Shown here piece after piece: positions 1,662-36,620 of a stretch of 64,000 nucleotides of DNA (position 1 is its first letter; every line of letters begins with the position of its first letter). The notes under the pieces are model-generated. The model was not told the DNA's origin and made no database searches. It was given only the letters and a program-made list of their open reading frames with translations. The stretch spans positions 5,122,155-5,186,154 of the forward strand of contig OX422184.1 of assembly GCA_949130485.1 (NCBI GenBank), written 5' to 3'. A program made the position numbers and the translations under genes. Source of the stretch: Agelas oroides. Its lineage: Eukaryota; Porifera; Demospongiae; Agelasida; Agelasidae.

Positions 1662-1943
1662 TCAACCGTTAGTTTCATATTCGTGACCCCCCATGCACCT
1701 ATCTCCCTTGCCACTATTGGCTTGCTGCACCCAGTTGGATAACCTTGATGCCCTTTCCTACACGCCACCTGCGTTTTGAGCCCTACCCCAATCCAGCTGC
1801 TGCAAGATCGGATGGCACTGCCCACCACATTTCTTACTACACCCTCGCCCAATTTTAATATGGCATACTTTAGCACATGGATGAGTGACCTAACATGGTA
1901 TATGCAAAAATGGCCTAGCGGTCCAGTTCCTGACTTCAGTGTA

Positions 1944-3023: not shown

Positions 3024-3440
3024 TGCCCGGAGCCTGCTAAGTGCTTCCTAACTCAGCCCTCTCTCTGACAGGTACCTGGGGTGAGTCCTGGGCCCCCTTT
3101 TTGGCCCCCTGCACCCCTTACCTAGCACTTCTTTGGTATATATATATTTCCTGACGCAGACCCGCTGTCTGTCGCCAGAACCTCCTGCCCCTCCCTGTAC
3201 CATCTCACCCAGGCTGTGCCCTGGGTGTATGCTGCCACCTGCCCTTGCAGCGACGCACATTGCCAGGAGCCTGCTAAGTGCTGCCTAACTCAGCCCTCTC
3301 TCTGACAGGTACCTGGGGTGAATCCTGGGGCCCCCCTGCACCCCTTACCTGGCACTTATTTGGTATATATATATATATTTCCTGACGCGGACCCGCTGAC
3401 CGTCGCCAGTACCTGCCTGCCCCTCCCTGTACCATCTCAC
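2975..3440. repeat. Tandem duplication, about 237-bp unit, at the 5' side of the retroelement
   Basis: Two imperfect copies lie head to tail. Copy 1 begins GGCTGCGCCCTGGGTGTATG at 2975 and copy 2 begins GGCTGTGCCCTGGGTGTATG at 3212. Each contains a (TA)n run, a GGTACCTGGGGTGA segment and a Cys-poor coding-like stretch. On the element's sense strand both copies carry a splice-donor-like GGTGAGATGG. It could be a 5' repeat of the element or a local duplication. Confidence 0.7.
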
Positions 3441-10364: not shown

Positions 10365-10785
10365 ATGGGAATCGATATTGTTACGTGGCGAGCTCGAGTT
10401 GGGCTCTTCCATATCTACCACCCTGTCAGGGTCAAGTGGAGAAGCGACTTTCATCGGCCTGGGGCGGCCAGATGGGGAGTAGGAGAAGTTATGAATAGCA
10501 CTCCTATGGTACTTCAAGGTTGCTTGGCTGTCGTCGCTCTATCGCTGATTTTGGAGCACACCTTCCGAAGTAGGGCAGCCCTCCTAAAAAAGAGAGATGG
10601 ATGTGGAAAGTTACGCTGCCCTAAGCTAAACAAGTTTGGAGCTTGCTCTATCATACGTATCATTGGAGAAAAAGGATGTGTGCTTGGTAGTACTTCAGTG
10701 TGCGTGAAAGTCGCTGCAGTAGTGCTGGCTTTACTGCTGATGGCAGGAGATGTTGAGAAGAATCCTGGACCGGAAACAAAGGAAG
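10365..10785 (+). CDS. Exon 1: hydrophobic leader with 2A motif
   Basis: The frame from ATG 10365 (or ATG 10491, MNSTPMVLQGCLAVVALSLI) carries a Cys/Lys-rich middle and a second hydrophobic run VKVAAVVLALLLMA that leads directly into GDVEKNPGP and then ETKE. The exon ends G|GTAAGT in phase 1. Signal-like hydrophobic 2A leaders are described for sea urchin and sponge NLR-type proteins; 2A motifs also occur at the start of some LINE proteins. A LINE-derived exon is therefore an alternative origin, but the in-phase strong donor and the downstream exons favour a host gene. Confidence 0.72.
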
Positions 10786-13700
10786 GTAAGTGTAGCATTT
10801 TTTGGCCTAATGAACTTTAGTTGGAGAGGTTGAGACACAGGGATCCAGTCAGAGAATCGGATAGCAGAGTAGAAGGATGTGGATGATTTTGTGCACCCAT
10901 CTCACCATGTGACTCAAATTAAGAGACCGTCTGTCAGTCTAGCAGGCACACACCACACAGTCTTTCACGTCAATCACGACCTGGTTAATCTCGTCAACAT
11001 TTTTAACTTCTTAAGGGATAGATCCTCTTCATCACTAATCATGGGTGGCATGCGAAAACCACTTGAGACTCTATTTAAGAGTCTTCGAGAGGAGCTCAAG
11101 TAATGCATGCAGCATTCAGTATGGGTATTGATGGCAGATTGATTACGTGAGCTACATGTATGTACATTTTCAATCCATATCCTTATACTCTACTCTTAAT
11201 TTATAATGGGATTTTAATTTTTGTAAGTCAAAACTACATCCCAAGATGCTCATAGGACTTATAATTTAATGCTGCATATGTACCGTAACTATATAGTACT
11301 CCAGAATTTAGTTCTACTTAGCGAAAAAAGCTTTATCATAGGTTGCAAGTGGAAAGCGCTGGAGTATGGAAACGGAAGTACGGAAGTGAGAAGAAAAGCC
11401 ACTTATCGGTGTCTAGTGCCTTACTGACTCATGACTGTGCCTTGTAGCCAAAGGGTGACTGTCTCTAAGCGATGTGAGAGCCTAGTACTGACACATCAGA
11501 CTTCAGCGAGTACTAACATGGTTGATTAACTTCAGCATCACACAAGAGTGTAGTCTTGTCGTGGTCTGATTTGCTAGTGTCTCTGAAGTAGTTTCGTAAC
11601 TGGTTGAGCCATTGGCGAACATTTTCGACGAGGAACTATGACAACACTTGCATATGCATCACCGTCACGAGAACATCAGCAGCACAGAGCCCACATGGTT
11701 GGCCCTCTCACCGTAAGTCTTGGTTTGGGTCTGGCCACACTCACTGGCAGCATGGATATATGACACGGAACCGTGTCCGTTCCGTGTCATATATCTATTC
11801 TGGCAGTCACTAGCATTGTGATAGTGATGCTCGCTGCAGTCCTAGAGCCCAAGATCAGGCTCTCACATCACTGGGAGACAGTCAGTCTTTGACTACAAGG
11901 CCTCAACACACACACTTGGAGTCAGTAAGGCAATAAACACCGATAGGCGGCTTTTCTTCTTACTTCTGCACTTTGGTTCCGCACTTCAGCGTTTTCCATG
12001 CACTTGCCCTGAAAGGAGAACTTCAGCATAAGTCTACTTAAAAACCTTGTAGCAACTCCAGAAGGGATTTCCCCACTTATGTATGTGCTGTTCCTATATA
12101 TGCTACACTATACAGTGCACTAGCCACCAACTCCTTAGTTCTGCTACAATCTTGTCTTGAGTGCAATATATTTTTATCCCACCAAGGGGTGTGCCTGAAA
12201 TTGTTTTGACTACCATTGAAAGCTTAGCCAATGAATATTTACTCCATAAAGGTATAGAGCCAGGGGCGGATCCAGAGATGGAAGAGGGGGATGCACTTAG
12301 TGGAGGTTGCTGCGCATGTAGTGTGTAGTTGGCTGTGAACGTAGCACATGGCATTATTGGGGGGTCTGGGGGCATTCTCCCCAGAAACATTTGAGCTTCT
12401 GAGAGTGCTTTTGAGATTAAAAACTACTAAAACGACACAAAATATATGCGTCTTTAGCTTAAATATCCATGTGTGCCCACTATAATTTCCAGTGGCCAGG
12501 ATATACTGCTTGCAAAATTTGCAACCACAGTATTTTTTTGTCTTTTGAGAATTCAGTAGATGATCAGAACAGTTGAATATCTCTGTGTGGTTGTTGTTGC
12601 TCTTGTCCACAAGCTACATGGCTTATGGTTCACTAAATACCTACTGTTGACTTTTCAAACAGAATGAAGTCCCAGATCTTTTGTTGCTTTGTGGTAGCGT
12701 AGTTGTGTCTTGCACGAGTCTTTGTTGGGACCTCGTGTAGGGGAATATAGACATTTGCGCTGTGTCTCAGTACTTTAGCTACGTGTGCTAAGCACGTAGC
12801 TGGTAATCAAAGAATACTGTCATGGTTTGAGTTAGTGGGTGTAGGTGGCACGTGCACCCTCTGCCCTAGTCTCCTGGATCCACCCCTGAGAGCTATCAAA
12901 TTTCTAAAAGCAAGCTCTAGAACAATGTGAGCTAGTGTACAATGCAACAAGAAAATACACAAGCGAAATGAACTTGTGGATAGTTGCATTTATAACTAGA
13001 GGTGCTCAGCAGAGCATATATACAACAATTGACTACTTTAGTAAATGTACTGTGATATACAGTGCGTAAAATTCTGATTTATTTGTTTAGAAGTCATGCT
13101 TTTCATCTCAGACAACCCAAAATTTGGGCAACTGACACATGGGCACACACAGACCGACTAATTGCTCAAGCTTGTGTACACGTGTGCATTTACTCCTGTT
13201 CACCATGGGCACAAGTGGTTATGAAAGGCATCAACAAAGTCTGATTACTGTTTTCTTTCATTCTGAAATATCAACCAAATGAGTCGCATGCAAGTGAAAT
13301 GGCAACATAACAATGCATTCGATACAGTGTGTACTAATTTGTGTGCTATAAGTTTGGGCTGACAGCTGCTGATCGGATGTACAGCCAGGCTTCATACTTC
13401 AGTATCTTGTAGTCTAAGACCTTCTGGTCCACGGCTATAATAGTAGCAGAGTTTCCTAGAAACCATCCTCTCTTAGAATTTTTTCATCTTAAATGAGTGT
13501 ATGGTTCAGGCTATGTATGCAGATGATGTGTATACTAGAACATTGTGGGGGCGAGCCTGAGCAAGCTGATACAGGCTGTCTCCTGGCAAACTGAAATGGG
13601 TGCCAGGAGAAGGCTTCTATGCATGTCCCTGTGTAGTCTGTCCCCTGCCCAGGGGAAGGCTTGTCTGTCCTCTGTGTAGTCTGTCCCCTGGTACTGGGTG

Positions 13701-16700
13701 CCAGGGGAAGGCTTGTTTGTCTACATGTTGTCTGTCTCCTGGTGTTCTTAGAGAGGCTCCTTGCAGAATCCAGGGGAAGGCATGTCAGTGGAGTTTGTCT
13801 CATGTATGGGGTAGGACAGCTACAGTCAGTGTGGATATGCATGGACTAAGCTTTACACTAAAATCATGAGCTGAATTTCTGGCGTCTATAAGTGCTGTTT
13901 GCGCATGGCCCTTACCTCGGAAGCAACCTCAACGACCATGATCGAAATTTGTACTGCCTGTGGGCAGCCTGCTGTTCATGATCTGTAGCACACAGCACAT
14001 ACAAACAAGGAGTAAGTTACCATGTGTATTTCAACTTCAGTCGTCTCAGCTCCGGGTCACCGACGCTGCACTCTGGCAGTAGCCCTTCACCTACCAAGTG
14101 CATGAGCTCAATATTGAAATTTAAATGCGCTCATTTAAAAATTTACGGTATATGGCCGCAAGCAAGCAAGCAAGCAAACATACACATGCACGTGCGCAAT
14201 GCAGTCCCGCTAGTGTGGGGCTCGCTCAGGCTCGCCCCAATAACAAACTGGCAGTTTAAGATTAGCAGACTAGTGTCTATGCCAGCTCTTTTGTTGTCTT
14301 ATGGAAGTTTGAGGCAAAATGATGGATGGTAATTATGTATCCAAATTCTTTCATAGTTCAATTAACTGTATTGTGAGCTTATTTTCTTGTTTGATATCAA
14401 TCTGAGTTACAGTTAGACCTAACCACAACCCTAGAACTTAGTAGTGGTTCCAAGCATGTAACATGCCAGCTGGAATCCGTCCGCGCCATTCCTACATAGA
14501 GAGTCTACCGACTCTCTGATAAATTCTGTGCACAATGACTAGTCAAACCACTATAAGAGGTGTCTCTTGAACAAGAATTTTTGATCAAAGCATATATTAA
14601 GCACTGATTAGTTTTGAGTCTAAAGTACACTCCAAGATACAGACGTAGAAGTTAGCTTTATCAAAGCAACGTTCGCTGCCACTTAGCTACAAGACATTAT
14701 TTTCAAAACAAGCTTTACCCTCAGGGGAGGAGCCAGACATTGGTTTTTCTGTCCCAAATTATGGGTTTGCTGCTCCTGTTGACCTAGTTTCCGTTTACTT
14801 TCATGAAGCCGATGTTTAACACTGTTAATTGTTTCATTGCAGAACTCAGTGATGGTGTGCCACAGGCACGGCTTGACAGTGCAGATTGTGGCATGTGGGT
14901 CAGCCACAATGATGGCAGGATACTTTCAAATTTTGAACAGTCCTCTCAAAGCAGCAAGTCTGGATCTGCACCTAGCCAAACTAATATCGAGACCTTCTTT
15001 GAGCCCAAGTCTGGTTGTCTACCTGCTCCTGGGCCTCCGCCACGTGGAGATGGGTCTAATCTAAGGCCAAAGAAGCAGAAGAAGCAGAAAAAGCATTCTG
15101 TGAGTAACCAACTGTGGGGGTTAATCTCTGAAAGTAAACGGAAACTAGGTCAACAGGAGCAGTCATGCAAGTTGGTATAGAACAGCAGAAGCATATTTAA
15201 ACAGTGGCTATGTCAAAATGTTCTGGCATTGGTCAGCTATCAGCTGAGCTGAAGTACACGTGGACTTGTGATCATTGTGAACTGCTAGTGTAAATGTAGA
15301 ACATTATGGGGTGAACTTGAGCAAGCACAGAACAACACTGTGTGGCTAGCTCAGTATGGCTTCACCAGTGCTTTACCAGATTATAGCAGTCTCATTTCTT
15401 GGATGTGACCATACAAGACTAACTCCAGCATGCATGTCTGTAGCTCACAGAGCAGGATTTAAGTCTGCCTGCCTGATGACAATAGTTTGCTGTATAGCTA
15501 TTTGATTGACCATCCCAAGAGTCCAGAAACGAGGTTAGCTGACTGCAACACAAGACTAAGTCTGTTCTCCTGCTGTTGTCTGTATACATAATGTTATGCA
15601 TAGACCTTACTTACACGAGTAGCATAGGCATCGAAGTCACCATGCATGCTAAATACACTGCTTTCAACTTAGACAATCCATTTATTGAATCTGCCGCCTT
15701 CAGCGTTCTGTAATAGCTTGGTTTGCTACACTGTTGCCAGCCCTCACACAGTCGATACTCATGCCCCAGCTTCCCCTCTTGAATGTCTCCTGTAGCCAGT
15801 AAGTCCTGTCTTCACTCACGCTATTCGTTTTTGGAAACACTCAATCTCATGTGCTGGCTGTACCGTGAGGCCAATAGTAGCATGCAGAGTGAAAATCTTA
15901 CTTATGCACACTTACCCCTTATTCTGCCAGGCTTATGTATTATCTCTAGCTCCAAGGTTGAAGTTGAACAAAAATGCTGTACCCTACCATAACATTACAT
16001 AATGTGGTGCTGTACCTTACCATAACATCACATAATGTGGTGCTGTAACTTACCATAACATTACATAATGTGGTGCTGTACCCTACCATAACATTACATA
16101 ATGTGGTGCTGTACCCTACCATAACATCACATAATGTGGTGCTGTACCTTACCATAACATTACATAATGTGGTGCTGTACCTTACCATAACATTACATAA
16201 TGTGGTGCTGTACCTTACCATAACATTACATAATGTGGTGCTGTACCTTACCATAACATTACATAATGGGTCTTGGGTGCTTCTATTCATTACAAGTTGG
16301 AACAAAAATGCAACCAAACATGACATGGAGTTGTTTTTGCCACCATCAGTTTATATATTGCCAGAAATGCAACGACATGGATTTCGCACTCTTTGGAAAC
16401 GTCTATTACATTTCCATTAGACATTCTTCACGTTTTACTATGGGAGCCTATGGCAGCTCAAACTCTGACTAAAGTAACTGGCTTACGTTGTACGTAAATG
16501 TGTTGTTAATGATATATTCACCTTCTGCTATCTCTCTACTAGCCACAGATATCTACAGTGGTAATTATCTCCGAAGAGGCACAGAATTTGCCATTCCTGA
16601 TGATATTTCTACATCCACGCACACACTGAAGTGACATAAAATTGACAGTTCAAATTTTCTGAAGTAAAATAAACACTTTTGCAGTTCATTTTTTAATTGT

Positions 16701-19700
16701 TTTTTTATGTTGTCTGCTGGCTGTCACGTTTTTACAGATTCTGTTCACAGAATTTGCCAAATCGGTACAAAATAGGCACAAATGTGTGCACTAACGTATA
16801 CAATTACAGATAATTGCACATACCGTACAATGTAAACTTCCACATTTTAATTATAACTCTGTACGCTTACGGAAATAACGTCCAAATTTCTGGTAGTGTA
16901 TATATTTCATGTTTAGAAATCATTAAATTACCAAAAATTAAGCACCCGGTGCGGAAATTAGCACACCAAAAGCATGCTTATAATCATTGGGTGCTTATAT
17001 CTATGGGGTGCTAATAAACACATGTAATGTTATTGTAAGGTACAGTCGTAGGGTATTAGGCCTAGAGTTTCTCTTTCTGCTAATTTTATTGGTTTTCTAG
17101 AACCAAAGATACAGTCAACACTTGATCGGTCATTGCCAACCCCTGCCCACCAAAGTAAACCGCTTGAATCCCCGAGAGGTTTTGCAACTTTCTACATATG
17201 GGTGTATCAAGAGACTTTGTGTTTGTGTTAGTTTTTATCCTGTTTCAATAGCTTTGTTACAGTCATTAATAGTGGTGAAAGTTAGCTGCTATGTTCGAAA
17301 AGCCGAATCAGCAATTCACTTCAGTTTGCGTGGTGACAAGTGCCTTTTAATGTTGGGTACCTACTTTTGTATGGGTGCTTATAAACGCAATGGGGATGTT
17401 GTGATTTAAATATATATTCATGGGGTGCTTATTTTGTGTGGGTGCCTATTATCCCAATCTTACGGTATGTCTTTTATATCAAAGAGACCAAAACTGACAA
17501 ACAGACTAACGCCATTTGTGCATGTGCACATAATTTAACAATTAAGATAGTAATAAAACTGCTTTAAAACTACCATTGCTATATAAGTGTACCTATAGCC
17601 TTGTCTTAGTATTGCTGTCACTAGGGTATGTGTCTTCTTTGTTTTTGGACATTTCTATGTTATAATAATTTACTTTTGCAGAGACAAAAATCTGCTCGAA
17701 AAGTGAGAAACCCTGCTGCTATCCAGGATACCCAGAATGCATCAACTGCTGGAGGTAAGATCATAACATGCATCTTCACAGGGTGCTCCCTTTTCTTGCA
17801 TAGCCAAATCTCCTTTGAAGTAGTTGTCTAAAAATGATGCTGCATCTCCAAGGCTTGGAGGTTGTAGGTAGATAGCTATCCTTAGAGCAACAGCCTTACT
17901 AGAGGACACATATACCATAGAGTATATGCCCCATGTTCTAGAGACATTAGAATGTAGTGAAGGTGGGCACTATGTATGTAAACTGGATGATTAGACATTC
18001 AGTATCTGTCTACATTAATGTGATGTGCAAGCAAACTGTCCTTAGGTCTAGATCTCAACACTAATCCCCCGTGTTCTGTGTTCATATCTTTTTGAGAAGT
18101 AGAAACAAAGATGAAGTCAGCAATTGATCGATGGTTGGTGTGACCCCACCTACCAATCTATAGGGCTTGGAACTAACATGTCCTCAAAAGTTGTTGCTGA
18201 TTTGTGGGTATGTATAATGAGAGGTCCTAGCAACAGGACTATTTACTCCGTGCGTTCATGGTTTATTTGAATCCAGAGGGTAAATTATATAATACTGGCG
18301 AAATTTAGTCAATACATTTACACAGTTATATTGCTGAGTCAGCAGTTGGTGGCTAAGTGTAGATGGACCCTAACCTCATTCCCAGGCTCTCCCTAAAGAG
18401 GTGGAGATCTAGCCTCGTTCCCAGGCCCCGTCCGAAAAATCGGGAAAGGGGCCTGGTAGCACTTCCGTGTATTTTCTGTCGCTAATGTAAACGTCATCAA
18501 ACACGTGCTACGGTAGGACACGCCTTGTTGCAACCGTTGATGTCAGCTGACTATCATGCAAATGCATGCAAGATGAAGCAAGAGCGAGTTGAACAAGTGA
18601 TGCTGTAGTATGCTATCTTCTGTGTTTATCTATCCAGCTTGGATGCACACTGTCTATACACAAATTCCGACAGATTGTTTCAGTTGATCGGGACCCAAGC
18701 CAGTGCCAACAGACGATCGGGGAGTTTGTCTCAATAACCCGTATGGGTAAACAGTGCTCTCCGTCCACCGATCTCCCGTAAGCGCGATACCACTGCTGCA
18801 CGTATGTAGGAGACACAGACGATGCTACTCTACCATATTGCATAGTCAGCACTTTTGGCCTCGTGCGTATGTGACAGGATCACGTTCCGTGTGATTTCAA
18901 TCCACAATCTGATTGGCTTCTCAAAATTTTGAGAGGTAATGGTGGACAGAAAATACACAGAAACGCTACCAGGCCCCTTTCCCGATTTTTCGTACGGGGC
19001 CTGGGAATGAGGCTAGTGGAGATCTTGGTACATTTTATCACATGCATGACGTCAAGGGTAGACACAACTTAATTATGCAAGGGTAGACTAAGCTGGGTGC
19101 CCATGCATGCACATTCAGGCACAAGCATTTTCAGGACTATTACAGTCTTCTTCTCGGGTAGATATGGCTTTAGTGTGTTACCTTCATACAGTCGGCAACG
19201 TATAGTTGCCCACGTAGAACTAGTGAGTCATGTTGACAACTCAGTCAACAACGATGCTAGCCTGCAACATACAACACATCGCAAAACTTCTTGCCATTCA
19301 GCCTGTCAGGTGCCGTGTCCAACACACTGAGAATGTATACTACACCAACCTACCTTGCTGATTAAGCCAGCAGTTTTTGTGCCATCGTAGCTATGCTTGT
19401 ACTTGCCTTGATCACGAGCTCTGAACTACGTACGCGGGTTTCCGTGTGTGACCATGTGCTATTTGTTCGTGTCTACCTCGTGTCTACCCTTGATGTCATG
19501 TACATGATAAAATGTGCCAGGCTCTCCCACTCCTCCGAGGCTAGACGGACCCTTAATACATTACTTCTCAACACTGTGCAAGATTTTGAGTGAAAATAAA
19601 GGGATGGGCCCTTGTTATGTGGTTGGTGCTTGATATGTACTCAATGGTAAAAACAGATTCCATAGGTGTTGAAAAGCTATCAGATTGTACTTATATGTGT

Positions 19701-22700
19701 TTGAGATCGATAGAATTTCTATTTCATGAGTGCTCTCTTGTATTCCATAGCATATTCTGTGTTTTGCATTGTCAAATGTGCATTGTGTTGTGCCTTTATC
19801 AAAACAGGAAACACCAGCAGTTGCAGGTACAACTGCAATCATTAATTATAGCCTTAAATTTTGCCTCATTGTTTTGTGAAAGTACTATAGCTGAAAACAG
19901 CAGTTGTATGCATGTTCATGGTTTAATATATTGTGGCTGCATATCTGTTATGTTTAGAGCAAGGACAACAACCTGCTGGGACACAAGATTCAATTGTAAT
20001 GCAGGAAGCTACTGCATCAACCAGTGAATCAACAAACATGAGTCAGGATGAACAAAAACAGGTGCGAAAACGTCCGTGTGGCACATGTGAATCTTGCCAA
20101 AGAGAGGACTGTGGAGAGTGCAAACATTGCAAGTGAGTCTTAGCAGTAATGTCATTGACTACTCTGCAAATACATACGTAGTAATCCAGTGGCCTTTTTT
20201 TTATAGGGACAAATCAAAATTTGGAGGAGAAAACAAGCTAAAGCAACGTTGTTTGTAAGTTGACCATTTCAATATCTAAAGCATCATATTTTGATAATAT
20301 AGTAGGTGTGTCAACCATTATCTACCACATTTCATTCTCTAGAAGTCCTTGTTTAAATTATGGATGCCTTCTATGGTCCATATTTCACTTCTTCTGGGAG
20401 CTACAGTGCTCCAAAGCAAAAGAGCAAAACTTTCAATTTTGGAAACTTTTAGCTGCAGAGCTTGACACACACATCAAATGTGTTTACATAAAAGGACTGA
20501 CTCAGCACTTGTTATGCTTCCCCTAAATTAATTAAATGTCACCCTATGTCTCCTTAGCAATATGGCTGCCAACAGTCATCCCATTCAGAAAAAGTGTTTA
20601 GCATAGTTTAGCCATGTTTCTTGAAGTTAATTGTCCAGATGGGGTGTGAAAGTAGTCTTTACTTGGATGAGGGTAGTCAACAGGCTCCACTTCCTAGCAT
20701 TGTCAGGAAGATCTATAAAAACTGATTTTTGAGAGGCAACAGTGTTTAGCATAGTATAGCCACAAAACTCCCAGTTAACAGGATTTACTGGAAAGATGGA
20801 TTTGAGATAGGTTAAAGTTTTGTTTCAAGTACTTTTCTTGGAAGAAGCTTCCTGGAAGGTATGAGAGCCTTTTGCTTGAAAACTGTACCATTTTAGTGAG
20901 ATGTCATGGGTGGGTGTTCCTTTCATGATGTCATTAACCACAACGCGTACCAAGGTGAACTGTATATGGCATGCTGTCTTCATTGATCCTGGTTCACTGG
21001 CTGTATGCATGAGCAAAATATGAAATCTTACAGTTTCTCGTGGTAGAGCGCACATTACTGACATTGTTTGTGATGTCACAGATGTGCACGACAATGCCAT
21101 AAAAACATCAGCCAGCTAGAATTCGAACCAAGTATTAGCTAGAACTTGATTAACTAGGCTTTATGGACAATGTAGCAAGTCAACTACAACTGGTTCTTCT
21201 CAGAGCCAACTCACAACTTCCTTGATCACCCTCGAAACTAGGAAGCGAGTCCTCGGAGTAAAACAGCACATTATCTGTGATGTCACAACAGCTCTTAAGA
21301 ATGGCAAGTATATAGAGAAGCTAAAACTTGCAGCACAGGCCGTGTACGTGCAAATAAAGATGAAGGATTTACTTTATGATTTGAAGTATTTCAAAAGTTT
21401 TACTCTCTTGCCTTGGAGCACTGTAGCAGTGGAAACTTGAGCCAAAGGTTCTTTTTTGTGGTTCATGACCTTGACCACGTCCATTCACTAGTAAGCGTTC
21501 AATTGTTGGGACTCTCCAACCAGTGAATGCTCCTTCTAAAACTGTCTATAGTGCCCAAATAGAGCCCCTAAAAGGCAGAGGAGTGGTTTCTATGGCTGTT
21601 TGTGCTAAAAAAAAAAGAGAGAAACGGCCCAGCCAGTGCCGACCAGGACCTTCTCAGCCTGCCAAGACAGCTGCCATATTGTGCACGGCATGTTGTGACT
21701 ATGCCCACCCACCTCCCCTACCCCACCCTGTTTGCTAGCACAAAATCTATCTTTCAAAATGGATTGCGCCAACTGATAACGTGCGGCCAAAGTGGCATGG
21801 CGTGTACATGCGTCATTGGTATTTAAAGGGTTAAGGAGTGTCAACAATGTAATCAGCACACCTTTTTGCATTATAAGGTAGCCACTAGCTATAGCTAGCC
21901 CTCCGGCTTTTTTGTTGCTTGTTGTACTGGGAACAAGGCTAATAAACATGCAGTTTAGACTTCGCGTATGCCCATATCCAAGTACCGTACACGTTCAAAT
22001 TGTTGTGGGAATAATATGCACTCCACACTAACGCACATAGTGCTTGTCATTTCAATTTCACGAACACAGACCTATACCAGCGACAAAGGGGAAAACTTAT
22101 CCACCGAGAAATGTTCAGCGTATGCGGTAGTTGACTTTACAAAAATCGTGCATTGTGCAGCTGAAACTTGTGGAGAATAAAACAGCTTTGGTCCCTATCA
22201 GATACACAAACGCCATGTTATTGATGCGTATAAAACTGCCTCCCCCCCCCTTCCCTTTCCCAAGCTACTGAGCCACATTCATGTGACCAGCGTTTCAGCC
22301 GTTCAATCTTGGCATGTCTGCCATGAGAGTACATTCAACTATTTTGGACAATTTTACAGATGGGGCCACACTTACTAAATTGCCGGACGCAAAGCCACTT
22401 AAGTTGGTTGGTTGTTATTCTCCTCATGTAAAAAGTCCTTTGTAAGGCAATTTGGTGCAAAAGGAAACTTCCACTTATATATAACTAAGTCTCTTCAGAT
22501 TCATAGGTTCTGTACAGCACTAATCACATCAGTTCAAAGTTCACAGAGAGTTATCTTTGTATATCCATAGCTAATAAACTATTCCATAACCTTAAAGTAG
22601 CAGGCTTCTGGGGAGAAGCTTGGCAATGAAGCTTCCTTAAAGAAGTTTGGGGACTTGTCTAAGTAGCTAACTGGGGGAAGGATGAATAAGCTGACTTATT

Positions 22701-25700
22701 ATATTGTACACTGCTGTATAGGTGGTTGCTAACATTATTCATGTACAATAAATCTACTACAAACCCACAACTTCCTGCTAGTGATGTGACAGTGATGGTG
22801 TATTAACTATGCCAGAGTGCAATGACTCACAGATATTGCACTGTGTATTGATTTTGTTTACCAGCACTCTTGAATATGGATACAAGTGTTGTGGGTGTCC
22901 TTAAAACGCTTTTCAAAGATATTGACTGGCAGGGATTACAAGACCAATGTTTTTTTTAACCTTTTCCCAACATTGGTGCATGGAAGTAGCTGGTAACAAG
23001 CTGTGTGGCTAGTGGAGTTCAGTTTGCCGGGCTCAACATATTAGCTCACTTGTTGTCCTTCTGGAGATTACTGGGCATGTAAGTAGTACTAATTACCAGC
23101 CATCAGAATCCTTACTTCAGTATGTTTCTAAATAGTGATGATATTTTTTTCATTTATCACAGAAAAAGAACATGTTTAAATCCAGTATTTGCTCAAGTAA
23201 GGAGATCAACAAGTGCAGGTTTGTTAAATGTTTCCTTTTAGCCTTATTTTACAGAGTCAAGCAAAGGCACTATACAGACACTTATGACTAGAGATGAACT
23301 TTTTGTTTGTGTGTTCAATTCAAAGATGATCTCAGTGACAGGTGAGTTTAGTCTAGAAGGTTGCCCTTGAGATTCAAGTGTGTATTCAGGCATGAATTTA
23401 CTCAACGCTTTTTTCATCTTGAATAGCAAGACATGCCTTCGTGCAATAGCTAGGCAGCCTTTTTGTTGGGGAGCAACAAGGTGTGAGCATACACATACAA
23501 AACCAGATTATCAAACAGGATCATCTCATTTCGCCTACTCTTGTTTTGCCTACTAATAAACAATTTGTGTCATTTCGCCTACTCAACAAATAACTGCAGA
23601 AAACAACAAGCAGTTGCAGAAACGTTTACAGATAGAGCACTACAATGGGGGAGAAATCTAGGTGCAGCACTGCAAGAACAAGTTGGTTGTTTTAACCACA
23701 GAGGGGTTACCATGGTTACAGACAAACTGGAGAGACAGTGGCTATGAGAGGTTTGCTTTGCTACTCAGGACTAATTGCATAAGGCAACCCAATAGGCAGC
23801 TGTCCACTTCCTCTTACAACCACAATACACTAGCTGACAACCCTCAGAACACTTGTGAAGGAGTCATTACAATCGCAAGCAGGTGATTCCCTCACAGATG
23901 TTCTGAGGGTTGTCAGCTAGTGTATTGTGGTTGTAAGAGGAAGTGGACAGCTCCATATTGGGTTGCCTTATGCAATTAGTCTTCAATAGCAAAGCTAACC
24001 TCTCATAGCCACTGTCTCTCCAGTTTGTCTGTAACCATGGTAACCCCTCTGTGGTTAAAACAACCAACTCATTTTTGCAGTGAGTTCTTGTACCTTCTCT
24101 TTCGGGAAAGTAAAAGTCCACTGATATAAAATGTGAGCTTTGTCAGTAGAAATTCACTTCATCCTCTGATGTAGTTACTCCGGCCACCACTACAACCAAC
24201 ACCTGCTCTCTGCACTCCTACAATGTTCTATTTTTAATGATTATTCTTCCATCTCTCCCACTTCAGCTGATCACAAACTTATATCCTTACTAAAGCTACA
24301 TGTGTAGTGTACCAAATGTATATTGATTCATTCCTAGTTTGAGTAGGCGAAATGACACAAATTGGTCTTTTGTAGCTAGGCGAAATGAGCCTAAACCAAC
24401 ATGCTTGACATAGCACCACTTTTCTAGGCTTGTTGGTAAACGAGACCTTTATTCACAGACTAAGTGAAGCATGTCAATAAAAAAAATGCAGCTACATACA
24501 TGTACCTTCTTCTGGCCTGTGTATTCATTCTGTCATCATTATGTCATGCTTAGTTCTTTTTGGTTGAATACTGTAAAATTTTGTACAAAAGGAACATTTT
24601 TACATGTACAAATTGGTTAGAGAATGTAAATTACTGAATACCATAAACTCTGGTTATTAATTAGTGCACCTTGCTATTAGGCACATATTTTATTTATTAG
24701 GTGCATGTTTCCTTAATGGTATACGGCATCATTTATTAAGTGCATGTGCATTAAATAGAGTACACTATGAGTGGCAAGAGATCGAGTGAAAACCTAGTCT
24801 CCTGACAGACCGCATTCCAAACAAGGTCTGGTACGAGACTAATGAAAACCATGGCATCAAGAGAATGCAGCACACTCAATAAGTCAAACAAAGAAGGTTT
24901 TTTCCTGTTCCGGCTCTGCATACCATGCCAATACCTGTTGGACGTGGCTTTACTGGCATCTCTTATTTATAGTGCATATCCTCTACTAGGTGCAGGTTTG
25001 CACTCATAAGCGCATGTGCTTATTAACCAGAGTCTACAGTATTGAAGGTGTACAAATATATAGAGGATTTGTATGGAAGGAAAAATGGCATGTGAATTTC
25101 AGATTAGAGAGGTTGTAACTGCCGAATGAGCATGTTTCTAAGGTGTACATGCCACAAGTTACACAAGAACGCCAGTAACACTAAGACCTCAAGCAATCAC
25201 AAACCTTAAGCTTGAATCGCAAATCTCCGATTCATGTGGACGGATGAATGGGTAAAGACAAAGTGTACACAAGATTCACAAAACGTTTGCACCAAACTGC
25301 TTTTCTCTACCTGATAATTCCCTCAATTTTAGTACCTCAGCTAAAATAGAAACTTAAACCCTCTCCAAGGCTCCACCCCCAGTCCGACAACAACATTAAT
25401 ACACACACAAAACAAGTGAAAACTTTACATATGGATTTGTCCTGGGACCACTTCAATTCCTGTCTACAGGCCAAAAACACACAGTTGACCCCCAAAAACA
25501 ACAATTTTGGCTATGTTGGCTTTCTAGAAAAATCCGACACACCTCCACTCAAACCAACCAAAACTGAGCCCAGTTTCAGAAACCTCAACTCACCCCCTAC
25601 AAAATTTAGGTATGCTTTTTCTCACTCACCTCCAGGCCAGGGAGTTACGTCCACAAACCTACTCCCTGTCATTGCACCTAGAATGGAGCCAAGTTACACA

Positions 25701-28700
25701 CATTCCCTCTAGCATAGAAGCCTGAACAGTCAGCTTTCTATAGTACCTTTGCCAGACAACTGTTTGATGACACCCATCTTCCAGGATGGCTCTCTGCCTT
25801 TCCAGCACACTCACAAACGTTTAAGCCCACTCCAGCAAGCTTTACACACACAAATAGCCAACTATCACATTTAATGAGCTAGAAAGTCTTTTTAGTGTTT
25901 AAGTGTTGGAGGATTTCTTCAAAGTTCCACCCAGCCACATGAAAATGCCGCCAGACCAATACAAAGGGCCACATGCCACGTCAAAGGGACACGCTCCCTT
26001 GTTGATTCCGGTTGCCACCATGGGAAAATGTACCCAAGCCAATGAATTTCAATAGCGCCATCATGGTCACCTGACCTCATTAATTATTTATGATCAGAAT
26101 CTGCCCGATTCTTGATTCAAGGTTGTCCTACCTTAATTGCAGCCATACTGCTTGTAGAGGACTTGCTTGATGTTAATTGTGCAAGGCTTCACGAGACAGT
26201 TCGTAGGTGGATAGGACTCGTGCATATTTTGACACCGTCCCTGGCCGTACGATTTACACCAACCTTCAAAATAGGGTTTCATTCACAGAATGCCAGAAAT
26301 GCCATCTCACTGCACTTGCACCTAAACACATTTCCACTGTGTATGAATAATACTTTCATTTTTACATGTACAAATCAATTAGGGTACGTAAATTGCCATT
26401 GTATATCCCAGGAAAGGTGTAGGAATTAATAGGGGATACGAATTATTAGAAATTTCACCGTAACTTGAATTTATCTCGTCATATTACAGACAGTAATAAG
26501 TAGTTTCTACCTTTGAGCTGCATACTTATAGGCAGTAGCATTAAAAGGAAAGTCCACAAGACTTATCCTCAAATGTTTATATCTGTCTTACCTATTCAAG
26601 GTCTGGTGATGACTAATTACTTGTGTGTCAGTTTTTTTTTAACACTCAACATCCGTTTTCTGTTTGACAGTTGGGGTCTTACACTTCTTGAGTTTGTGGT
26701 CTTACACTTCTTGAGTTTGTGGTCAGGCTGTTCTGTTTTTAGACAAATGCTGAAGCTGATAGTTTTGTATAGGTCAAGGAAATGAAACTTTGTCAAAGCA
26801 AAACTGGTATGGCTTAAAATATATGGAAGTATGATGTGCATTATTTCTGTCTGAAATTATATCTAGTGTGTAAATTCTTTAGGGACAAACAGAATATTTG
26901 AAAAAGCAATGAAAGAGGGTTATGTTACCATCTATGCAACAAAATGTGCTATCACTGGCCCTCCTGGTTCAGGTAAGTCGAACCTTCGATCACTTATTCT
27001 CAATGAGGAATGTCCTGCAATACGCCAAAGCACTGCTGTTGCAACTGAAGCCACACAAGCAACACCAGATTTTATTCCATCTATTCAAGAAGATATGGTG
27101 GTAGCTGGTCAGAATGATGGAAAATGGAAGATAGTAGACAATGATGAGATGAAGCGGTTAGTGGCCAGTTGGGTGAAGGCACCAAAGTATCAGATGGATG
27201 GGGAAGATGACGTGCAGGCCAAAAGTACTAGTAGCAACAGTGAAGAAGTTGTAATGCAGCCAAAATTGAATGAAACTGCAGGGCAAGTTAGCCACAAGCC
27301 CACTGTTCCTATTAAACTATGCATACCAACAGAAATTCGACATTTACTAAGCATTTCACATCACAAATCAGATTGCTTACATGAAATGCGTTTTGTCTAC
27401 CTTGTTGATACTGGAGGGCAACCTCAGTTCCAAGAAGTATTGCCAATGTTTGTTCGGAATGCTTCTGTTAATGTGTTTGTTTTCAAGCTTTCCGAGAAGC
27501 TCAGTGATTGTCCAACATTTACGTATTACATTGGTGGGGAGCCATACTGTGAACCAAAAGAGATGCAACTTACCAACAAGGCGATTATTGAACATGCTGC
27601 ACGTTCTGTGTTCTCTTGTGGTCAAACACGACAGATAAAACATGTCAGAGAAAAACCAACCCAACCAGCTGTTGTCTTGGCTGGTACATTCAAGGACCAA
27701 TTAGATAGTTCTGAAATGCTGGAAGAGAAACAAGAGATTCTATTGGAGTGTCTTGGCCCATATATTAAAAAGGATGGTGTTATCGGTGCTTCGAGAAAGA
27801 TGATGATATTTGACATTGATGGAAGTGAGGTAGGGTGGTCCAAAAATGACAGTATCCTTTCTAACCTACGTAACGAAGTGATCATAAGAAGTAAATCCAT
27901 GAAGATTGATGTGCCAATTCGGTGGTTTTTGTTTCAACTTGAACTGAAAGATTATGCCAAGCGAAACAAGTTGGATTTTGTTACGCTCAATGTCTGTTAT
28001 CAAATTGGGCAGCAGTTAAAAATGCCTCCTGAAGATGTTGATCAAGTTCTCCTGTTCCTCGATGAAGTAAACATCATTCTCTACTACCCAGACGTTCTTC
28101 GTGACGTGGTGTTCTGCAATCCACAGTTTCTTCTTAGAAAGGTTACAGAAATTATTGTGGCCAGTTTTGACTGTCTTGTTTTGGCTGGTGACAAGTTAGG
28201 ATCATACAAAATGTTTCAAAAAGAAGGTATCTTCACTTCTCAGTTGATAACTGCAGCAGCATTTCAAGCAGGATATAATGAGGACTTTTCACAAAACGAT
28301 TTGCTGTTGCTGCTAGAGGAGCTACTCATTATAGCAAAGGTTGGAGAAGACCGCTATTTTATGCCTTGTGTGTTGCCACTGGAACAACCAACTTCCGATG
28401 CTAGGCACAAACTTCGTTCTGACTCAGACTTTGCACCACTTGTTTTTTCATTTCCTAGTGGATACTCCCCCCGTGGAATTTATTGTGCCTTAATTGTGTA
28501 CTTGACCTCACAAGTTGAATCCCACACCTGGACTATCACACCAAACTGTGACCTTGTGCGAAAAAGGAACTTGATTGAATTCGACATTCAAACTTGTACC
28601 AGTGACGCTATAGGTACTGTAGTCATTGAAGATACGCTTTCTTATTTTGTAGTTTATGCCTTTGGCTGTGAAGCTAACTTTTGCCAAGAAATTCGACGTA

Positions 28701-29414
28701 CTGTGTGTACTGCAATGTTACATGCAACAGAAAGGCTTTATTATGATCACAGCAAAGTCGAATATAAGGTTGGTTTCTTCTGTGATGGTTTGTGTGGGAT
28801 TAAACCCGAACATGCTGCAGTGCAAATGGATGGAAAGGTAAAGTGCACCAGGAATCTGCGGAAAAAAGGAAAGCCACTGACTGAGGAACAGCAGCCTTGG
28901 TTTGATGCTACCACTTCGAGTTTACATGCAAAAGGTACGCATATTTTTTCCTATTAGTTAGCTTTTGCATGGTACTCATTAGTAGTATGTCATTTTTTGC
29001 AAATGTCCCATAGACAATGTCCCAACATCATGCAAGAAACCATCCCTTGGGCAGCTAATGAATGATGTTGCAGTGAAAGTTAATCCAAGATCATGGAAAA
29101 ACATTGCTACTCAATTAGAGCTACATGCAATTGATATTGACCGTATAAATCAGGAAGAGCAAGGAAAGGTGGATGACCGCTTCATAGAAGTCTTTAGTTT
29201 GTGGGAAAGGAGAGCTATTCGACCATATACATGGGCTACCATGATTGCTGCATTGGAAGCTGACTGTGTTGGGGAAAATCGTGTTGCCATTGAACTGAAG
29301 ACGAAATACCAGACTGCATCTAACCTATCTGCTGTATCCAGCTTGGGAAAGCATCCAAGAGATGACTCAGATACACCTACTGATCCACCACAAAAGCAAC
29401 AAAGGCAAACCTAA
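10365..29414 (+). CDS. 2A-leader / CXXC finger / Roc-COR-like GTPase / death-domain protein (8-exon gene model)
   Basis: The exons are 10365-10785, 14843-15099, 17682-17754, 19958-20132, 20207-20254, 23163-23218, 26883-28934 and 29014-29414. Every junction is GT-AG and every phase agrees, giving 3483 coding bases, 1160 residues and a TAA stop. Domains in order: hydrophobic leader ending in GDVEKNPGP (residues about 128-136), a low-complexity linker with a Lys-rich cluster (about 215-225), a CXXC zinc finger (about 290-340), a P-loop GTPase with GPPGSGKS (about 369-376) and DTGGQ (about 518), a COR-like region, and a C-terminal death-like domain. The 2A motif is predicted to cause ribosome skipping, releasing the leader from a product of about 1025 residues. 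ROCO-type GTPases and death domains act in immune or cell-death signalling in other animals; the CXXC finger would add CpG-DNA binding. ATG 10365 is the first in frame; ATG 10491 is an alternative giving a shorter leader. The exon 6 donor (GTTTGT) is weak, so additional exons there are possible. Confidence 0.72.
10746..10772 (+). other. 2A ribosome-skipping sequence (GDVEKNPGP)
   Basis: The nine codons encode the complete 2A consensus D-V/I-E-x-N-P-G-P with a preceding Gly. Peptide-bond formation is expected to fail between Gly (10767-10769) and Pro (10770-10772). The upstream residues are strongly hydrophobic, as in dual-targeting 2A leaders. Confidence 0.9.
12261..12888. mobile_element. Non-autonomous DNA transposon, CAGGGGCGGATCC ends, 5-bp TSD
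   Basis: It starts CAGGGGCGGATCC and ends GGATCCACCCCTG. Direct AGAGC repeats lie at 12256-12260 and 12889-12893. The interior has no gene and resembles the fragment at 7455-7600. Confidence 0.8.
13543..14243. mobile_element. Possible transposon with GGGGCGAGC / GCTCGCCCC ends
   Basis: The left end TTGTGGGGGCGAGCCTGAGC is mirrored on the right by GCTCAGGCTCGCCCCAATAA. The same end motif recurs near 15307, 33220, 39092, 40030-40055 and 60690. Target duplications were not resolved, so boundaries are approximate. Confidence 0.35.
14771..15161. repeat. Perfect 33-bp inverted repeat flanking exon 2
   Basis: The arms 14771-14803 and 15129-15161 are exact reverse complements (left arm begins TGCTCCTGTTGACCTAG). 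They lie in the introns on either side of exon 2, 325 bases apart. In the pre-mRNA they would form a 33-bp stem looping out the exon with both of its splice sites. Confidence 0.95.
14843..15099 (+). CDS. Exon 2: linker with Lys-rich, NLS-like cluster
   Basis: The acceptor is TTTCATTGCAG and the donor TCT|GTGAGT. In the phase set by exon 1 it reads ELSDGVPQARLDSADCG, later SQTNIETFFEPKSGCLPAPG, and ends RPKKQKKQKKHS. The Lys/Gln cluster could act as a nuclear localisation signal, which would suit the following CXXC finger (inference). No domain is recognised. Confidence 0.65.
15974..16268. repeat. 33-bp tandem repeat (intron 2)
   Basis: About nine units of the type ATAATGTGGTGCTGTACC + TTACCATAACATTAC repeat with period 33. 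A period divisible by three keeps frames open on both strands and creates artefact ORFs. Confidence 0.9.
17682..17754 (+). CDS. Exon 3: short linker exon
   Basis: This is a 73-bp exon between TACTTTTGCAG and GTAAGA. It reads RQKSARKVRNPAAIQDTQNA then STAG in the phase left by exon 2, and ends in phase 1. The sequence is basic, low in complexity and has no recognised domain. Confidence 0.6.
18371..19543. mobile_element. TAGCCTCG-family transposon, outer copy of a nested pair
   Basis: The ends TAACCTCATTCCCAGGC and (inverted) TAGCCTCGGAGGAGTGGGAG are flanked by GATGGACCC (18362-18370) and GACGGACCC (19544-19552), a 9-bp duplication with one mismatch. The element is interrupted by a second family member at 18410-19015. 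It lies in intron 3. Confidence 0.75.
18410..19015. mobile_element. TAGCCTCG-family transposon inserted into another copy
   Basis: The terminal repeats extend more than 60 bases (TAGCCTCGTTCCCAGGC on both ends, inverted). Each contains an inner GCCTGGTAGC that folds back on CCAGGCCCC. The 9-bp duplication GTGGAGATC is exact at 18401-18409 and 19016-19024, so this copy arrived after the outer one. Confidence 0.88.
19958..20132 (+). CDS. Exon 4: Gln-rich linker and first half of the CXXC zinc finger
   Basis: The acceptor is TTATGTTTAG and the donor AA|GTGAGT. After EQGQQPAGTQDSIVMQEATA the frame reads KRPCGTCESCQREDCGECK and HCK. This is the first CXXCXXC cluster and the conserved DCG of CXXC-type zinc fingers (as in DNMT1, MLL, CFP1). 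It supplies six of the eight zinc-ligand cysteines. Confidence 0.8.
20207..20254 (+). CDS. Exon 5: core of the CXXC finger (KFGG motif)
   Basis: This 48-bp exon lies between CTTTTTTTTATAG and GTAAGT. It reads DKSKFGGENKLKQRC, containing the diagnostic KFGG and KQxC of CXXC domains, whose loop contacts CpG DNA in characterised members. Phases on both sides agree with exons 4 and 6. Confidence 0.82.
20255..23162. other. Intron 5 of the 2A-CXXC-GTPase gene
   Basis: ORFs here do not resemble exons. A short GTTTAGCATAG-type segment recurs at about 20598 and 20742. No complete transposon was delimited. Confidence 0.4.
23163..23218 (+). CDS. Exon 6: end of the CXXC finger
   Basis: A strong acceptor (T-rich tract, TTTATCACAG) opens an exon reading LKRTCLNPVFAQVRRSTSA. 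Joined to exon 5 it completes KQRCLKRTC, the final C-x4-C with the usual Arg before the last Cys, which is why it is preferred over an alternative acceptor near 20343. The donor GCAG|GTTTGT is weak. It ends in phase 1, matching exon 7. Confidence 0.7.
23525..24392. mobile_element. Inverted-repeat element with CTCATTTCGCCTA ends, carrying a nested element
   Basis: The left end has CTCATTTCGCCTACTC, then TTTGTGTCATTTCGCCTACT. The right end is the reverse complement of the same pair, with GGCTCATTTCGCCTAG outermost. A second inverted-repeat element (23663-24089) lies inside it. Confidence 0.65.
23663..24089. mobile_element. Long inverted-repeat element (CACTGCAAGAACAAGTTGG ends)
   Basis: The arms of about 200 bases are nearly perfect reverse complements. 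They contain TGGTTGTTTTAACCACAGAG and GTTACCATGGTTACAGACAA and meet near 23885. A second copy lies at 31815-32243 and a partial copy near 34255-34360. Confidence 0.85.
24637..25045. mobile_element. Putative short transposon with ACTCTGGTTAATTA-type ends
   Basis: ATAAACTCTGGTTATTAATT at the left is mirrored by CTTATTAACCAGAGTCTAC at the right. No gene is inside. Boundaries are approximate. Confidence 0.45.
26200..26470. repeat. Dispersed repeat shared with 63060-63295
   Basis: Both places carry CCCTGGC(T/C)GTACGAT, a TTTTTAC(A/G)TGTA(C/T)(A/G)AATCAAT segment and a closing ACGAATTATTAGAAATTTCA-like end, in the same order and orientation. The family is not recognised. Confidence 0.5.
26883..28934 (+). 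CDS. Exon 7: Roc/COR-like P-loop GTPase core
   Basis: This 684-residue exon opens after AAATTCTTTAG. Visible GTPase motifs are ITGPPGSGKSNL (P-loop), YLVDTGGQPQFQEVLP (switch II-like DxxGQ) and VLAGTFKDQLD (G4-like). Then follows IDVPIRWFLFQLEL with DVDQVLLFLDEVNIILYYPD and VVFCNPQFLLRKVTEI, which fits the winged-helix COR region of ROCO-type proteins. The last about 150 residues are a beta-rich region without an assigned family. The segment between P-loop and switch II carries an acidic insert (about exon residues 60-140). It ends AAAG|GTACGC in phase 1. The assignment rests on motif order, not on a search. Confidence 0.8.
29014..29414 (+). CDS. Exon 8: C-terminal death-fold domain
   Basis: The acceptor is GTCCCATAG and the stop TAA is at 29412-29414. 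The domain reads LGQLMNDVAVKVNPRSWKN, IATQLELHAIDIDRINQEEQ, VFSLWERRAIRPYTWATMI and AALEADCVGENRVAIELK. This is the six-helix pattern of death domains: Trp after the first helix, I-D-x-I before helix 3, LxxW near helix 4, and TW...L near helix 5. A short polar tail rich in Pro/Asp/Gln follows. Death domains recruit partners by homotypic contacts. No AATAAA was seen immediately downstream. Confidence 0.78.
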
Positions 29415-35101: not shown

Positions 35102-35292
35102 ACTTCAATACATGTATACAAACAGTGCTAAACAGCTACATGTGCTATTCCCAGTTAATCGTGATAATTCCCCCCAAGAGGCGTGACCGGAACTTCGCTT
35201 CAAAATTCTTGACCTATACTAAATATAGCTAAAGACCCTGGCCCTAGCTAGTCACTTTTTGGTCCTACTATACTGAGGAATATACCTCAAAA

Positions 35293-36620
35293 ATGGCTGA
35301 TGACCGACAGAAAGCGGCGGATGGAGAAAAGTTGATCTATCTTGTTTGGAAAGGAGACATTTCCGATGCTACGACAGCGCTTGCTGAGGGAACCAATCCA
35401 GATTTCCGCTATTCGGAAAATGGTAGTGATCGGTTACCTTATTGTGTGGAAGATGATACATCGCTGCACATTGCTGCAAGGAATGGAAACATCACGCTGG
35501 TGAAACTGCTCATCGTCTTTGATGCGGACCTCAATCTTAAAAATCGGAATGGAGAAACACCCCTTGATGTAGCAATAGATGATTGTAAAAAGATCATTGA
35601 AAAGATTTTGACACTACGCAAGCATCTCACCGAAACGAGGGCTCGCAAAATTGCAAAGCCGCCACCTAAGCGGGACGATGACAACGTGTTTCTACTCAGC
35701 CTAGATGGTGGTGGCATTCGAGGGCTGGTGTTTATTCAGGCTGTCATCGAGTTGGACAAACGACGTGAACAGCTGTATCCAGGATCAAAGCCTTTTCTTT
35801 CCTATTTCAACTGGATCGTTGGAAACAGCACTGGAGGGCTCTCAGCCCTCGCTATTGCTACCGGTTCGCGGGCCGCCAGATGTATTTCAAACTGAAAAAC
35901 GAAGTTTTGAAGGGGCTCCCCCCATTTCACATCTCGGAAGTCTTGCAAGATACATTTGGAAGTGAGAAAACCATGTCTACAATCAAAGATTATAACGTTG
36001 CTGTGTTGACGACACTTGCAGACACTAATCCCCCGAAGCTTCGTTTCATGCGCAATTACGGGGATTCCTGTGACGAACAATTGGGTCCTGGCAAACGACG
36101 CATTTGGGAGGCTGCGCAAGCTACTTCAGCTGCTGTGCCCTACTTCAATCCATTCGAGGATTTCATTGACGGTGGTTTCATTGCAAATAACCCAACTGTA
36201 GATGCGCTTGTTGACATAAGAAAGCACTTCAAAGAACAGCAACGAGAGAAGAATCTCCGAGTCAAGACCGTGATTTCACTTGGTTGCGGATACATCCACC
36301 CGGCGCCATTTGAAGTACCTCAACAGAATTGGATTCAGAAAATGTTAGACTTGCCTAATGGAGTGGCTATCATAAAGGTTCTAGAGTTATTAGTAGGTCA
36401 AATAATCCAACCACCTCAAGAAGTGGTCGAACGTGGTGAGATGGTCGCAGAAGTCCTCGGTGCAAAATATTTTCGCATCAACCCAATAATCGAGCAAATC
36501 AGTTTCGTAGAATCTGATGATACGAAGTTAATCGACATGGTGTACACATCAATGTTGTACATGCTAGAAAACTATACTGAACAAATGGACCCTGTCTTGG
36601 AAGCCGTTATGGAAAACTGA
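35293..36620 (+). pseudogene. Ankyrin-patatin phospholipase, iPLA2 (PLA2G6)-like, intronless, frameshifted
   Basis: The first frame (35293-35895) starts at a good ATG (CAAAAATGG). It has an ankyrin repeat (DTSLHIAARNGNITLVKLLI) and then the patatin motifs LSLDGGGIRGL (oxyanion) and GNSTGG (nucleophile Ser of GxSxG). The second frame (from about 35880 to 36620) continues MYFKLKNEVLKGLPPF, AQATSAAVPYFNPFEDF, IDGGFIANNPTVDA (catalytic Asp of DGG/A) and ends at TGA. iPLA2-type enzymes hydrolyse the sn-2 acyl chain of phospholipids. The two frames join at about 35870-35882, where a few residues normally lying between GxSxG and MYF(K/R)LK appear lost, which suggests a small out-of-frame deletion or a sequence error. 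The lack of introns suggests a retrocopy. It encodes fewer ankyrin repeats than vertebrate PLA2G6. Confidence 0.8.

Follow-up and report, generated by a model that had tools for sequence, protein, structure and literature searches.

A Sponge Gene Predicted to Join a 2A Leader, a PIP-Like Motif, and a CXXC Finger to a Roc-COR GTPase and a Death Domain

Introduction

The ROCO proteins, which the relevant part of one account sorts into three groups (PMC6337361), already include members that carry death folds. DAPK1, of group 3, has a Roc-COR module followed by a Death domain and lacks LRRs, and the placozoan proteins treated in part of a second paper (PMC11378527) combine ROCO with CARD, Death, LRR, or TPR and thus bring death folds and ROCO together in one early animal. 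Here we describe a gene of the sponge Agelas oroides, at positions 10365-29414 of a 64,000-nucleotide stretch of the forward strand (the window; GenBank GCA_949130485.1, contig OX422184.1, 5,122,155 to 5,186,154), whose predicted product runs from a 2A leader through a PCNA-interacting protein (PIP)-like motif and a CXXC finger to a Roc-COR GTPase and a Death domain. Compared with DAPK1, this product has no kinase or ankyrin Pfam matches and carries in addition the 2A leader, the PIP-like motif, and the CXXC finger, none of which is mentioned for the placozoan proteins in the corresponding part of PMC11378527.

A 2A sequence ahead of a signaling protein has a precedent in the sea-urchin NLRs, in which, according to part of the report on them (PMC4981915), a hydrophobic N-terminal 2A sequence precedes a Death-domain signaling protein and has both recoding and signal-sequence roles that partition the products; the sponge product differs in its absence of NACHT and LRR Pfam matches and in its leader, which is 135 aa long vs. 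26 aa. StopGo is called rare in cellular genes in a paper whose main text does not name sponge, Porifera, or Amphimedon (PMC12846837), and a literature search joining 2A-like sequences and Amphimedon found nothing. On the chromatin side, the closest PDB counterpart of the finger is that of DNMT1, from which the product differs in having no RFTS, BAH, or methyltransferase Pfam matches, and KDM2A/B, CFP1, and MLL share the KFGG-type finger, which in the sponge product has no chromatin enzyme attached. The N terminus of DNMT1 has a PIP-type motif and a basic stretch, KFGG-type CXXC fingers bind unmethylated CpG, and DNMT1 and KDM2B are CpG readers. Among the matches listed in our literature searches, no paper holds the combination of 2A, PIP, CXXC, ROCO, and Death; the author of an earlier note on this DNA knew of no described protein with the order 2A, CXXC, GTPase, and death domain. 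ROCO with Death being already known from DAPK1 and the placozoan proteins, the additions of CXXC, PIP, and 2A are the new part within that literature.

Results and Discussion

The gene is modeled as eight plus-strand exons whose splicing preserves phase and yields a single uninterrupted reading frame (1160 aa, closed by TAA), with GT and AG at the ends of 7/7 introns; a collinear second copy lies ~67 kb upstream, at C2:5065868-5081030. Exon 1 (10365..10785) encodes the leader, which ends in the 2A motif DVEKNPG/P, and the first residues after it. Exon 2 (14843..15099) contributes the PIP-box-like QTNIETFF, a proline-rich stretch, and the basic KKQKKQKKHS, and exon 3 (17682..17754), 73 nt long and bordered by GT/AG in both copies, extends this putative nuclear localization signal (NLS)-like stretch with RQKSARKVR. 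The CXXC finger is spread over exon 4 (19958..20132; a linker and cysteines 1-6), exon 5 (20207..20254; KFGG, KQ, and cysteine 7), and exon 6 (23163..23218; the last cysteine, the eighth, and a short linker). Exon 7 (26883..28934) holds the predicted Roc-COR GTPase, with P-loop GPPGSGKS and switch II DTGGQ, and exon 8 (29014..29414) the Death domain, a tail, and the stop codon.

Exon 3 was found by a splice-site scan demanding phase and an open frame, and its 73/73 bases recur unchanged in the second copy. Splicing exon 2 straight to an acceptor at 20005 would also fit in phase, but this acceptor is weaker (3.47 vs. 4.53) and exon 3 would be skipped. Exon 6 offers a rival GT donor after 23196, which scores 6.0 vs. 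5.6 for the donor after 23218; a shorter exon ending there breaks the frame and meets 42 stops, which leaves 23218 as the one that can be used. The earlier note had likewise proposed eight exons with GT-AG borders and agreeing phases; the three junctions that it gives, 10785/14843, 20254/23163, and 23218/26883, recur in the phased model, and exon 3 is an exon that it does not name. The domain architecture is, as a prediction from the DNA, well supported as that of a single gene product.

All eight exons are kept in the second copy, whose frame stays open over 1154 residues and whose introns show GT/AG in 7/7 cases. BLAST blocks place the limits of the shared unit 85 bases before the window gene's first ATG and 3 bases past its stop; between these limits, intron 1 is largely unaligned and intron 6 partly so. 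The ratio of nonsynonymous to synonymous divergence (Ka/Ks) between the copies is 0.38 for the whole frame, 0.30 for Roc-COR, and 0.25 for COR alone. Synonymous divergence shifts sharply along the gene, from 0 to 0.11 in exons 1-6 vs. 0.20 to 0.41 in exons 7-8, which suggests gene conversion; the 5' half of the copies has probably been homogenized. In a tree of 11 GTPase proteins, the window copy groups with P0002 and the second copy with P0005, each pair at 100/100 support; by these pairings the gene appears to have duplicated before the lineage that carries P0002 and P0005 branched off.

The element that exon 2 adds to the earlier description is a PCNA-type motif followed by a basic stretch. 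The window gene reads QTNIETFF and the second copy QTSIANFF, both on the canonical PIP-box pattern QxxIxxFF, and PIP boxes of this form bind PCNA; the motif is followed by PAPGPPPRGDGSNLRPKKQKKQKKHS and then by the RQKSARKVR that exon 3 supplies. Eight exon-2 sequences were compared, from the window gene, its copy, and six other contigs or assemblies (a ninth returned protein, P0115, is a relative of the CXXC exon). QxxIxxFF is present in 8/8, with Q, I, F, and F fixed and the x positions varying; the strict pattern, first spotted by eye, arises in 0.05% of 100,000 exon-2 shuffles. The exon borders are also shared: the acceptor context FIA(E/K/D)(L/I) occurs in 7/8, the eighth beginning within the exon, and 8/8 read through the donor as SVSNQL or PVSKYV. 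A search of the genome with exon 2 gave two matches, the window gene and its copy.

The finger scores 44.6 bits against Pfam zf-CXXC (product residues 284-329, profile 2-48 of 48) and contains the eight cysteines together with KFGG and KQ. In the PDB it matches DNMT1 best (47.4 bits), with KDM2B practically equal (47.2), and CFP1 also aligns. The window is depleted in CpG (observed/expected 0.464, compared with 0.435 in other stretches) and has a TpG excess of 1.30, so that unmethylated CpG could be informative here. The relevant part of PMC7385117 describes sponge methylation as varying widely by species and not fully coupled to CpG depletion, and on that account the depletion is no proof of heavy methylation. 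The genome contains at least 91 CXXC matches, and the one most like the window finger outside the two copies is in L004 (64%). Pfam places an OTU protease open reading frame (ORF) beside the fingers of both L004 and L007, together with a SWIM match that exceeds its cut-off in L007 and is subthreshold in L004; the CXXC loci L003, L005, and L008 were judged by eye alongside these two. Such elements resemble, as we take it, Mutator-like element (MULE)-type DNA transposons, which suggests that a MULE-like family carries CpG-type fingers in this genome.

The predicted fold of the GTPase exon matches the Roc-COR of LRRK1, LRRK2, and Roco, with Roc followed directly by COR as in the ROCO family. In the joined product, Pfam scores are 30.7 bits for COR-A (cut-off 35.3, profile 1-143 of 143) and 18.2 bits for Roc (cut-off 27), and a PDB sequence search with the GTPase returned weak Rab-type matches only. 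GxxxxGKS and DTGGQ are kept in 11/11 aligned GTPases. The Death domain (residues 1043-1110) reaches 24.2 bits against a curated cut-off of 22.6, and 28.5 bits when the last open frame is searched alone. Each module named in the earlier note can be recognized in these data: the 2A leader from DVEKNPGP closing its 135 aa, the complete CpG-binding type of CXXC finger from its score and residues, the P-loop GTPase with its COR-like region from the predicted LRRK1/LRRK2/Roco fold, and the death fold from Pfam. The domain search that the note had asked for on the joined product gave a mixed outcome, CXXC and Death exceeding their cut-offs and Roc and COR-A falling below theirs.

Both ends of the gene belong to separate large families that the earlier note did not mention; the counts of genome matches given here for leader, GTPase, and CXXC are lower bounds. 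The GTPase family has at least 79 matches (64 scored of 222 candidates), with ~30% identity outside the pair. Flanks were read at ten loci (L032-L041), and Death exceeds the Pfam cut-off in the downstream ORFs of four (L033, L034, L036, and L039). L035 has a downstream Death match below the cut-off (13.6 bits), the ORFs of L040 and L041 are by eye very like that of L039, L032 has a subthreshold ZU5 match in place of Death, and no Death was seen in the downstream flanks of L037 and L038. Upstream ORFs contain KH in L032, SAM/Pointed in L037, and FN3 in L038; we treat these as neighbors and do not assume that they belong to the same genes. The Death domains downstream of several family members and the KH domains adjoining another make nucleic-acid modules on ROCO-Death proteins plausible. 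In L032 itself (L032:129-3562), an ORF with KH, an RNA-binding domain, stands directly upstream of the Roc-COR GTPase ORF, possibly an RNA-reading ROCO.

The leader has hydrophobic stretches at residues 45-63 and 112-130, and its motif, at 10749 in the window, follows the D(V/I)ExNPGP pattern. The leader family numbers at least 83 matches in the genome (144 scored), mostly on C1 and C3, and D-V-E-x-N-P-G-P is kept in 12/12 leader loci examined (L009-L020). The sequence that follows five further leaders (a pair on C3 within L026-L029, plus L048, L049, and L050) was read by eye and shows ankyrin repeats in four, all but L050, and death-like sequence in three, namely one C3 gene, L048, and L049. 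The death-like exon on C3 scores 21.2 bits in Pfam, just below the cut-off of 22.6, and in L048 and L049 one open frame appears by eye to hold both leader and death-like sequence. Clusters of 2A-led genes lie at C1:1.5-7.3 Mb and C3:0.3-0.8 Mb and are possibly an undescribed receptor family. In other assemblies there are 95 leader relatives, six of them 86-88% identical (P0015, P0017-P0020, and P0075), P0016 at 71%, and the rest at most 57%.

Among the matches listed, judged by eye, leader and GTPase are united at the window gene and its copy only, and these two are also the only places where a CXXC match and a GTPase match share a strand no more than 20 kb from each other. Three places on C8, near 4.87, 4.97, and 5.11 Mb, pair a GTPase match with a CXXC match on the other strand at a distance of 18-25 kb, which may reflect a segmental duplication that was repeated. 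The GTPase search of other assemblies, in which 7991 candidates were scored, returned 14 proteins: P0001 is the window GTPase, P0003 that of its copy, and three are CXXC-only matches, while the relatives proper are P0002 and P0004-P0010, at 66-89% identity, and P0011, at 38%. The leader relative P0017 and the GTPase relative P0004 are each on a contig of 549,787 bases and, from this equal size, would be on one contig. Of the domain order, which the earlier note had proposed to look for in other sponge genomes, another assembly thus probably shares the linkage of leader and GTPase; linkage of exon 2 or CXXC to the GTPase was not seen in other assemblies, where the contigs that carry their relatives are all of at most 2,282 bases.

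We propose that the gene is a single 2A-led unit encoding a nuclear ROCO-Death receptor that would be anchored both at unmethylated CpG and on DNA under replication, a reading to which we give about even confidence. The domain anatomy fits the earlier suggestion of a sensor or effector that could act on unmethylated CpG DNA and signal through a death fold. More tentatively, and with somewhat less than even confidence, we suggest that the receptor reads unmethylated CpG through its CXXC finger, sits on the replication clamp through its PIP box, ties Death signaling to how replicating DNA is methylated, and is partitioned between membrane and nucleus by its 2A leader. Under the main proposal, 2A would cause most ribosomes to release the membrane-seeking leader, so that the downstream protein would start free in the cytosol and could use its basic stretch to enter the nucleus. 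Once inside, it would read unmethylated CpG with the CXXC finger and grip PCNA with the PIP-like motif, and so would stay on DNA that is replicating or unmethylated, for example viral, microbial, or host DNA on which maintenance has failed. A GTP-driven change in a Roc-COR dimer might then expose the Death domain to recruit death-fold partners; such recruitment is what Death domains do. A minority of molecules made without 2A skipping would keep the fused leader and remain at membranes.

Several observations weigh against this proposal. The eight-exon model derives from genomic sequence alone, and the PIP-like and NLS-like stretches are assigned as motifs; a PDB sequence search with them returned two weak, unrelated matches only. 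Constraint between the copies is weak in the leader, exon 2, and the Death domain (Ka/Ks 0.62, 0.56, and 0.61), and the value of 0.25 for CXXC comes from two changes. With Ks so low in exons 1-6, the second copy cannot count as separate evidence on the 5' half, and the fact that no linkage of exon 2 or CXXC to the GTPase was seen on the short contigs of other assemblies counts on the same side. The Roc-COR model has modest confidence (predicted local distance difference test, pLDDT, 64), G4 is TFKD in 10/11 GTPases and MFKD in P0011 and not NKxD, and Pfam COR-A is found in the window product and P0011 and not in P0004, P0006, or P0009.

The locus might instead be two neighboring genes, with 2A-led exons 1-3 ending apart from a CXXC-ROCO-Death gene that begins at an ATG near 19999. 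That ATG at 19999 is present in both copies and the introns are long; exon 3, however, has at its end a strong donor whose phase is the one exon 4 requires, the duplicated unit spans leader and GTPase from before the first ATG to past the stop, and relatives of leader and GTPase recur elsewhere on contigs of equal size. We therefore regard two genes as improbable, and the earlier one-gene reading and domain order gain support from the phase, the intact second copy, and those contigs. Still harder to credit is a chance or artifactual union in which unrelated exons were joined and the CXXC exons were left by a CXXC-carrying transposon. The many CXXC matches, the OTU and SWIM neighbors typical of DNA transposons, and the L004 finger as best match outside the copies speak for such an origin, but the finger is split by two phased introns, is intact in both copies, and has its first half and linker 80% kept in another assembly (P0115). 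On these features we reject a recent transposon capture, though the finger could have come from a transposon long ago.

If one gene is accepted, its role may be other than sensing. PIP and CXXC could direct a ROCO switch, in the manner of DNMT1, to unmethylated CpG DNA during replication, with Death serving assembly, so that the protein would be a chromatin or cell-cycle regulator and no immune sensor. The PIP motif, basic stretch, and CXXC do recall the N terminus of DNMT1, whose finger is nearest in the PDB together with that of KDM2B; yet the large leader clusters, with death-like sequence in 3/5 and ankyrin in 4/5 of the downstream readings, and the large GTPase family with its varied neighbors look more like an immune repertoire, and we hold a regulator to be rather unlikely. 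An integrated decoy, in which the DNMT1-like PIP-CXXC part baits microbial or viral attackers of the host's replication or methylation proteins and sets off ROCO-Death signaling when disturbed, would suit the large receptor-like families, whose varied upstream neighbors (KH, SAM/Pointed, and FN3) resemble those of integrated-domain receptors. It is a poor candidate in our judgment: no binding partner is known for it, and the PIP-type residues are fixed in 8/8, as if functional.

Were the proposed nuclear receptor borne out, a chromatin reader and a GTPase switch of the type in Parkinson's-linked LRRK2 would together make up a CpG sensor encoded in the germline, its domain order suggesting a nuclear DNA sensor wired to Death signaling. 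TLR9, cGAS, and AIM2 sense DNA by routes different from this CXXC-ROCO one. The leader family hints, in addition, that 2A leaders may be swappable exons ahead of signaling proteins, and the proposal yields a short set of directly testable predictions.

Three further features accompany the gene. Intron 2 contains a minisatellite with a unit of ~33 bases (window ~15975-16271), and the second copy has a minisatellite too. Downstream, on the plus strand, are ankyrin and patatin-like phospholipase ORFs (window 35248-36617). At the start of the window, on the minus strand, retroelement ORFs (window 3-3047) appear by eye to be reverse-transcriptase-like and zinc-knuckle-like.

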